Positions 28,969 to 32,458 of a stretch of DNA of 64,000 bases are shown here, one piece after another. Numbering within the stretch: position 1 is the first letter of the stretch; each line of letters starts with the position of its first letter. Under the pieces are notes generated by a model. That model worked only from the letters and a program-made list of their open reading frames with translations. It ran no database searches and was not told the origin of the DNA. Source of the DNA: Natronorubrum tibetense GA33 (GTDB lineage Archaea > Halobacteriota > Halobacteria > Halobacteriales > Natrialbaceae); NCBI RefSeq assembly GCF_000383975.1, contig NZ_KB913017.1, positions 2,717,527 to 2,781,526 of the forward strand, given 5' to 3'. The translations under genes were made by a program, and so were the position numbers.

Positions 28969-30144
28969 TTACCGGATGACGTCGACGCCGTTCTGTTTGT
29001 CGAGTTCCTCGCGGCCGCCGTCGCTGTGGGCGTTGAACTCGTTGTCGACGTTCTTGCTCGCGTCGAAGTCGGTGTTTTTGACGCCTTCGATGCTCTGTCG
29101 CGACTTGTCGGCCTGCTTCTGGGTCGTCGGACCGAGCACCTGTGCGCTCTGGACGCCGGTCATGATCGCCATGACGCGGACCTTGCCCTTGTAGTTCTCC
29201 TGGATCCGGGCGCCCCAGATCACGTTCGCCGAGGCCTCGAGGCGCTCGGTGATGTTGTCTGCGATTCCTTCGGCCTCTTTGAGGGTGAGGTCAGGACCGC
29301 CGGTGATGTGGACGAGGCCACCCGACGCGCCGCGGTAGTCGACGTCCAGCAGCGGGTGGTTCATCGCGTCCTTGACGACCTCGTCGGTCTTGTTCTTGTC
29401 CTGGGTCTCACCGACCAGCATGACAGCGACGCCGCCCTGGTTCATGATGGTGGACATGTCCGCGTAGTCCAGGTTGATCAACGAGGGTTGGGTGATGGTC
29501 TCCGAGATCCCTTTGACGGTTTCGGCGATGATCTGGTCCATCACCGAGAACGCCTTGCCGATTGGGAGGTTCGGGACGTAATCGAGCAGTCGGTTGTTGT
29601 CGAGGACGATGATCGAGTCGGCCTGGTCTCGCAGCTTCTCGAGACCCTCTTCGGCCTTGACCGTCCGGGCACGCTCGACGTTGAACGGCGTCGAGACCAT
29701 CCCGACGACGATCGCACCCTGCTCTTTGGCGATTTCGGAGACGACGGGGGCGGCACCGGTACCGGTTCCGCCACCCATGCCTGCGGTCACGAACACGAGG
29801 TCTGCATCCCCGAGGACCTCTTTGACCGTGCCCTGGGCCATCTCGGTCGCGCGTTCGCCCATCGAGGGATCGCCGCCAGCGCCGAGCCCGTTCGTGAGCG
29901 ACTTGCCGACGAGGATCTTCGTGTCGGCCTCGATCATCTTGAGGTGCTGTTTGTCCGTGTTGATCGCGACGGTGTCAGCCCCGTCGACGCCGATGTTGTA
30001 CAGCCGGTTGATGGTGTTGTTACCGGCACCGCCACAGCCGACGATGACGATCCGCGGATCGCCGAACTCGTCGTCGTCCATGTCTTCCATCTCCCGGGAC
30101 TCCTGTTCGGCGTTTTCGAGGGCGTCTTGTACGATGTCCTGCAT
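28969..30144 (-). CDS. ftsZ2: Cell division protein FtsZ2
   Basis: A 391-residue tubulin homologue. The nucleotide-binding GGGTGTG motif and the T7-loop NLDYADM are intact. The N-terminus [13 protein letters not shown] and the ncsA neighbourhood match what I recall for haloarchaeal FtsZ2, the constriction-driving paralogue, rather than FtsZ1. The C-terminal tail is acidic (about 360-391). It starts two bases after the small RHH gene, so the two are cotranscribed; the motif-rich region at 30345-30514 is their probable promoter. Confidence 0.95.
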
Positions 30145-30146
30145 CG

Positions 30147-30326
30147 TTACACCTTGGCCCAGTTTCGTTTGCCGGTCTGTTCGCTCGGTGCGTCCTGTTG
30201 TTCGTTGATCATCTCTCGGACGGCCGACCGGATCGCCTCGCTCCGGTTCGGGAACTCGCCCGAGTCGACCAACTGCTCTACCTCGTCGATCTGCTGCTTC
30301 GGAATTCGCAGTGTCACACGCTCCAT
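30147..30326 (-). CDS. Ribbon-helix-helix (CopG-like) protein upstream of ftsZ2
   Basis: A 59-residue RHH protein: strand [12 protein letters not shown], helix [12 protein letters not shown], then [15 protein letters not shown], the standard fold that dimerises and binds DNA through the strands. Stop at 30147, two bases before ftsZ2, so it is the first gene of the ftsZ2 operon. It is a natural candidate for autoregulation through the repeated GTAAGAC motifs in front of it, which is inference. Confidence 0.85.
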
Positions 30327-30344
30327 AGTTGTATTCCCTTTGGG

Positions 30345-30514
30345 GTAAGACGGCGCGCGCCCCTGTCAGACGCGGCGTGTCTTACACGGAGTTGCCCGAC
30401 ATCGGGCGTTTTTCGGCGTTTGCCGACCGTTGTAAGACGACCGTCTTACGCGAATAAGTGAAATACTGGCATAGACAATAAAGCTTTCGTCGGACACGAC
30501 TTTCTGTGTCTTAC
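30345..30514. promoter_or_regulatory. Cluster of five GTAAGAC/GTCTTAC motifs before RHH-ftsZ2
   Basis: The 7-mer occurs at 30345-30351, 30379-30385, 30432-30438, 30443-30449 and 30508-30514, alternating orientation. The central two form a perfect palindrome with a 4-base spacer (GTAAGACGACCGTCTTAC); two others sit in the context GTGTCTTACACGG. The copy at 30345 overlaps the expected TATA position for the RHH-ftsZ2 operon. An operator array is the simplest reading. Confidence 0.6.
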
Positions 30515-30522
30515 ACGGGTCG

Positions 30523-31185
30523 TTATGTATGACTGTCTTGGCCGAGGACGTCTGCGGCCGGCGTTCGACGCCCACAGCCCGGACAGAACGCCCAGTCCGA
30601 CCGAATTTCGTCGCCGCAGTCACAGAACAGTCGTCGCGAGGTCTTCTCGCCGCAGTTCGGACAGTAAACGTGGTCGTCGTCGACGTGTTCTCCACACTGG
30701 TCGCAGTGACTAGTCGGATCGTCCTCGAGCGACTGCGGCTCGTCGGCGTCCTCACGAGCGGGCCGTTTGGCCCCGTCGCCGTGAACGGCGTGGCCGTCTC
30801 CGCGCGCGTGTGCATCAGTCTGGACCCGCTGGTCGTCTCGAGCCGACCGCTCCGGAATCGGGCGGTCGTCCTCGAGTGAGACACTGATCGTGACGTCGCC
30901 CGTATTTCGTCCGCGCGTACGGGACTCCCGCAGTCGGCTCTCGTCGAGTCCGTACTCGTGGAGCCGATCCGCGAGCAGTTCGTCGACACGCGTTCGGATC
31001 AGGTCGTCGATGGCACCGGTTGACTCCGGCTCACCAATCGACGCACGCCCCGCACCTCGGTCGGCCCCCGTGGAGCCGTCGAGGTACGCTCGCAGCGCCT
31101 CACGCATCGCTTCGCTCTTCGATACGTCGAGGCGCTCGAGTTGCTCGACGAGGTCATCGTCGGCGCGGAACGTGATCTTGCTCAT
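30523..31185 (-). CDS. RHH protein with C-terminal double zinc ribbon
   Basis: A 220-residue protein. Residues 1-40 are a ribbon-helix-helix domain (MSKITFRADDDLVEQLERLD, then KSEAMREALRAYL). A long acidic, disordered linker (about 40-160) leads to two zinc-ribbon units: CDQC...CPNC and CDCG...CPGC. It lies directly upstream of the ftsZ2 operon on the same strand, separated by the motif array. I infer a DNA-binding regulator. Confidence 0.8.
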   Translation of the reverse strand: MSKITFRADDDLVEQLERLDVSKSEAMREALRAYLDGSTGADRGAGRASIGEPESTGAIDDLIRTRVDELLADRLHEYGLDESRLRESRTRGRNTGDVTISVSLEDDRPIPERSARDDQRVQTDAHARGDGHAVHGDGAKRPAREDADEPQSLEDDPTSHCDQCGEHVDDDHVYCPNCGEKTSRRLFCDCGDEIRSDWAFCPGCGRRTPAADVLGQDSHT

Positions 31186-31314: not shown

Positions 31315-31388
31315 CCGCCCTTAGCTCAGACTGGTAGAGCAGTCGACTGTAGATCGACTTGCCCCCCGTTCAAATCGGGGAGGGCGGA
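31315..31388 (+). tRNA. tRNA-Tyr (GTA anticodon)
   Basis: A 74-base cloverleaf: acceptor arms CCGCCCT and AGGGCGG with discriminator A, D-loop AGACTGGTAGA, anticodon stem GTCGA/TCGAC around CTGTAGA (anticodon GTA) and T arm CCCCG-TTCAAAT-CGGGG. No intron and no encoded CCA. A TATA-like TTATGTTA lies about 30 bases upstream. Confidence 0.95.
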
Positions 31389-32372: not shown

Positions 32373-32458
32373 CTATAGTAGCCACTGCAAGTCATTGCAT
32401 ACCTGATCGCCAGACGGTTCGGCGATCAGTATGTAAATCGTTGCAGTTGTTACTATAC
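32373..32458. repeat. 86 bp near-perfect palindrome, copy B of a dispersed element
   Basis: Left arm 32373-32411 and right arm 32421-32458 pair around a 9-base loop. The outer ends read CTATAGTAGCCACTGCAA and, on the other strand, GTATAGTAACAACTGCAA; the inner ends are CTGATCGCC and GGCGATCAG. Copy A is at 6463-6546. It lies between two genes of the same direction, 50 bases before the aIF2-beta TATA box, so it might affect that promoter or end the upstream transcript. Confidence 0.75.

Follow-up and report, generated by a model that had tools for sequence, protein, structure and literature searches.

The genes cdrL (30523–31185), cdrS (30147–30326) and ftsZ2 (28969–30144) lie on the minus strand of the 64-kb window, by which we mean the whole stretch of DNA that was analysed. 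cdrS encodes a ribbon-helix-helix (RHH) regulator of 59 amino acids, which matches Pfam RHH_1 and the NCBIfam equivalog NF058555 (E 3.7e-35, 119.7 bits, cut-off 100). The preliminary description of this DNA had correctly noted that only two bases (30145–30146) separate it from ftsZ2, which scores 400 bits against TIGR00065, over the cut-off. The 220-residue product of cdrL combines an RHH domain with a C-terminal double zinc ribbon (PF01402, RHH_1, and PF12773, DZR, both above their cut-offs; orthologues aligned), and this combination is the published description of cdrL. With a CdrS equivalog directly 5' of ftsZ2 and an RHH-double zinc ribbon gene upstream, the locus belongs to the CdrS-CdrL-FtsZ2 type and has the same genes in the same order as the published CdrS/CdrL system (Darnell 2020, PMC7439475; Liao 2021, PMC8406309). 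The DNA-contact strands of the two regulators are alike, namely MERVTLRI in CdrS (R-V-T-L-R) and MSKITFRA in CdrL (K-I-T-F-R). This similarity would be in keeping with related DNA specificities. Among solved structures, we found no close relative of CdrS, while NikR and a CopG-family protein are weakly like CdrL.

A tRNA-Tyr gene (31315–31388) is divergent from cdrL. Words of this tRNA gene recur just 5' of cdrL in about 53 of 79 regions, and the neighbourhood is therefore old. Positions 32373–32458 hold an imperfect long inverted repeat (TATAGTAGCCACTGCAA ... TTGCAGTTGTTACTATA), which resembles a small transposable element. Several species of genus g35 (G112, G155, G189, G078) have a single in-frame TGA or TAG stop within their cdrL match, possibly due to decay or sequencing error; the palindrome described below is present there.

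The 7-mer array and the cdrS-ftsZ2 promoter

Exact search of the window returned five copies of GTAAGAC/GTCTTAC between cdrL and cdrS, where they had been placed before. On the window strand they are at 30345–30351 (plus), 30379–30385 (minus), 30432–30438 (plus), 30443–30449 (minus) and 30508–30514 (minus), and the rest of the window contains just three further exact copies. We designate the sites as they are met along the cdrS (minus) strand. Site D (30508–30514) is the distal copy, located upstream of the BRE/TATA region between the end of cdrL and the promoter. Site P (30432–30449; GTAAGACGGTCGTCTTAC on the cdrS strand) is a pair of copies, 11 bp apart from centre to centre, at the predicted transcription start. 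It is followed by U1 (GTAAGAC, 30379–30385) and by U2 (GTCTTAC, 30345–30351), the latter about 20–25 bp before the cdrS start codon. The pair had been called a perfect 18 bp palindrome, GTAAGACGACCGTCTTAC; this is true of its 8-bp arms but not of the central AC, which is asymmetric.

The promoter was recognised by a TATA-like TTTATT (30477–30482, minus) in a conserved alignment and by a BRE-like purine-rich stretch (about 30483–30491, minus). Of 151 distinct promoters, 148 have a TATA box that begins 32–33 bp ahead of P, so that P falls on the predicted transcription start (near 30450–30453, minus). A copy had been thought to cover the core promoter. Instead, TTTATT has the copy at 30508 on one side and the palindrome on the other, and it is the palindrome itself that sits on the predicted start. 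The spacer within P is N4 (11 bp) in 117 of the 151 promoters, N5 in 32 and N6 in two. U1 and U2 are inside the predicted leader, whose expected length of about 100–125 nt is compatible with the size published for the bicistronic mRNA in Haloferax, about 1,500 nt.

The leader has other elements as well. A few bases 5' of the start codon of cdrS is GGGAATA (30332–30338), which most relatives have as GGGGAATA; it hardly varies within the class and differs from a standard Shine-Dalgarno sequence. Between P and U1, a putative GC-rich hairpin, GCCCGATGTCGGGC, is found in Natrialbaceae (about 30394–30408 in the window), and its sequence changes in other genera. Between U1 and U2, there is a single GTCTGAC half-site (30365–30371) of the type discussed below for ftsZ1 (CdrS); about 40 of 154 loci have it at about −46 from the cdrS start codon.

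When the 196-bp interval was shuffled under a first-order Markov model, more than two copies of this 7-mer were reached in none of 20,000 cases, and any 7-mer at all reached at least five copies in 12 of 3,000. Since other, GC-rich 7-mers in the 64-kb window also attain five copies in ≤177 bp, the cluster on its own is less striking, and the comparative evidence decides. Across the whole genome of 4.93 Mb, this interval is the only place where the 7-mer forms inverted pairs within 30 bp.

Conservation across the haloarchaea

Conservation in orthologous regions had been set as the test that could refute the motif, and the motif passes it overwhelmingly: all 80 orthologous loci from named haloarchaea, with the window counted in addition, have three to five exact copies, and these are at matching positions. 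The 7-mers are invariant in the aligned loci while the flanking bases drift. Counted from the start of cdrS, the copies in most genera are at about −190, −125/−113, −60 and −25, except that Halorubrum and its relatives have the distal copy at about −170 and on the opposite strand. The commonest variant of D is GTATGAC, in which the central base is altered. GTAAGAC upstream of cdrL, as a possible means of cdrL autoregulation, was rejected because it is found in only three of 79 loci.

Of 194 Halobacteria genomes, 188 have P exactly once, covering 63 of 65 genera, versus two of 194 for a reversed-pattern control. On inspection, the six exceptions hold near forms of P. In G060 and G134 the spacer is 2 bp long, in G018 a single base is substituted, and in G014, G124 and G174 the second half is altered. 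Outside Halobacteriales, one of 124 genomes of the same phylum matches P, and no cdrS-like gene is within the 3-kb locus of that match. We conclude that the array is a real, strongly conserved cis-element of a known regulatory circuit.

The layout, in which short inverted half-sites follow each other at a distance of about one helical turn within the target promoter, is that of an RHH operator. In bacteria, the operators of Arc, MetJ, NikR and CopG likewise consist of short half-sites and hold neighbouring dimers at roughly this distance, although their half-site sequences differ from those of the array. Another RHH regulator of a division gene is aCcr1, the cell-cycle repressor of Sulfolobales. 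The RHH domain of CdrL hits the NCBIfam aCcr1 model only weakly (27.6 bits) and stays under its 60-bit cut-off, so CdrL is not placed in that family, and the hosts of aCcr1 use a different division machinery (CdvA/ESCRT-III).

A related element at ftsZ1

Many genomes have GTCNGAC-N4-GTCNGAC upstream of ftsZ1, with half-sites 11 bp apart, just before BRE/TATA and about 50–65 bp upstream (loci L091–L120; in this genome G000:C1:493163-493180). In Haloferax, ftsZ1 is a ChIP target of CdrS and has a motif some 50 bp ahead of the start site; there and at 17 other sites, this motif is a symmetric paired element, like the array (Liao 2021, PMC8406309). Because its position fits that motif, the GTCNGAC pair is probably a CdrS site; its identity with the published logo is judged from this position. 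The pairs at ftsZ1 and cdrS-ftsZ2 have the 11-bp spacing in common but differ in base 3 of each half, and the former lies upstream of BRE/TATA whereas P is on the predicted start. GTAAGAC was looked for at ftsZ1 in this genome and is absent; a GTCAGAC/GTCTGAC pair is there instead. Exact GTCNGAC pairs number three in the genome, with one at ftsZ1 and none at the cdrS-ftsZ2 array. With its GTAAGAC sites, the array is thus not a CdrS operator of the ftsZ1 type. The search for exact pairs thus missed the published CdrS regulon, in which the remaining sites may have degenerate forms.

Candidate readers of the array

We interpret the five 7-mers as RHH operators of the cdrS-ftsZ2 operon that are probably read by CdrL and likely also by CdrS, and we give this reading a probability of about 70%. 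Two RHH dimers would sit one helical turn apart on P (GTAAGAC-N4-GTCTTAC). As P covers the predicted transcription start, its occupation should limit initiation. The single copies D, U1 and U2 may hold extra dimers, so that the response would be graded or cooperative. CdrL would be one reader of the array, and the most likely second reader is CdrS, the product of the operon itself, which would provide feedback on the FtsZ2 level. Direct binding to the 7-mer, the sign of regulation and the role of CdrS are what we infer here. The location of P on the predicted start suggests repression. In published data, ftsZ2 mRNA is lowered 1.3- to 2.2-fold in a cdrS deletion, which suggests activation by CdrS. 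Both effects could occur if the copies differ in what they do.

The array would explain the published binding of CdrL, which in Halobacterium salinarum has its sole reproducible ChIP-seq site upstream of cdrS-ftsZ2 (Darnell 2020, PMC7439475). A single site also matches a palindrome that occurs once per genome, as would be expected if CdrL were the only reader, the whole array being CdrL-specific and CdrS being confined to GTCNGAC-type sites elsewhere. We regard this as unlikely, though several observations favour it. In Haloferax, cdrS-ftsZ2 is missing from the list of 18 CdrS ChIP sites (PMC8406309), which counts against CdrS as a reader; in that experiment, CdrS was expressed from a plasmid and had an N-terminal FLAG tag, beside the DNA-binding strand. 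The different base 3 of the ftsZ1 half-sites points the same way. Furthermore, CdrL (PMC7439475) and the palindrome are both nearly restricted to Halobacteria.

Genomes that have no detectable CdrL bear directly on this point. There are eight of them (G001, G002, G007, G026, G093, G136, G138, G183), all near-complete and from seven genera in four families. In these genomes, the full-length CdrL profile finds nothing better than E 3.7e-5 and the CdrL RHH domain nothing better than E 4e-4, versus 8e-23 or better where CdrL is present. They contradict the statement that CdrL occurs in all sequenced Halobacteria (Darnell 2020, PMC7439475). If CdrL were the only reader, its operator should be lost with it. 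P and U2, however, are exact upstream of cdrS in all eight (U2 also in 137 of 146 loci with CdrL). Hence, P and U2 are independent of CdrL, and CdrL is probably not the sole reader, a departure from a model in which CdrL acts alone. D and U1 behave differently, in favour of a CdrL-specific role: each is exact in one of the eight CdrL-less loci, versus 113 of 146 (D, Fisher p about 3e-4) and 108 of 146 (U1, p about 8e-4) loci with CdrL, where both p values ignore kinship. Within family f3, the U1 contrast disappears, as just nine of 33 CdrL-bearing genomes have U1 exact. The link between intact D and U1 and the presence of CdrL is therefore suggestive. A search of the CdrL-less genomes for a stand-alone RHH substitute gave none with a CdrL-like RHH domain. 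In all eight, cdrS adjoins the array, and its product is the foremost candidate for a second reader.

A more specific scheme is possible, which we put forward tentatively. CdrS and CdrL may read two operator types, GTCNGAC at ftsZ1 and GTAAGAC at cdrS-ftsZ2, with equal 11-bp spacing of the dimers. CdrS, alone or mixed with CdrL, would read the start-site pair as a class-wide feedback on FtsZ2, and CdrL would be a dispensable layer acting mainly on D and U1.

The array could instead be read by a third DNA-binding protein besides CdrS and CdrL. Such a protein would account both for the persistence of the sites without CdrL and for their absence from the CdrS ChIP list. It is a rather improbable solution: we know of no third protein that binds the array, the published CdrL peak would have to be explained in some other way, and the paired 11-bp architecture agrees with that of the ftsZ1 element.

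The repeats might also act in RNA, with P folding into a hairpin where the leader begins and U1 and U2 pairing as a stem. P, U1 and U2 are indeed inverted, each of them within or bordering the predicted leader, and P would give a stem of 7 bp with a loop of four bases. Yet U1 is off-consensus in 45 loci, in 43 of which U2 is unchanged and in none of which it has the matching variant, and the arms of P are nearly invariant without covariation. Moreover, D, being upstream of TATA, is not part of the transcript, and its strand varies between clades. We rejected the RNA stems for lack of compensation; they are very improbable, and a DNA operator is a much better reading. Chance, or shared ancestry without function, has in its favour that other 7-mers cluster in the window too, but it is already refuted by the conservation of P (63 of 65 genera, control 2 of 194) amid drifting flanks and has a negligible probability.

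The preliminary description had proposed a dedicated RHH circuit acting on ftsZ2 and had taken the motif and its link to FtsZ2 to be undescribed. An operator array of the RHH-ftsZ2 operon is supported by our data; the circuit, however, is not new, as it has been published with CdrS and CdrL (PMC7439475). The sequence of the operator is a different matter. The words "motif" and "palindrom" are absent from the text of PMC7439475, and neither this text nor that of PMC8406309 gives the 7-mer or the array. We found no published description of the operator in the literature searched, beyond which a paper may have one, and the sequence is thus apparently new.

The control of division protein amounts in archaea is a largely open field. 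An operator defined in sequence, with a paired core that occurs once per genome, offers a concrete target of the CdrL/CdrS circuit, open to mutation in Haloferax or Halobacterium. The ftsZ1 element suggests that both ftsZ genes are linked by operators of related design. The core of the array outlives CdrL, which revises the simple model of a CdrL operator, and the genomes without CdrL point to where the primary regulator may be sought.
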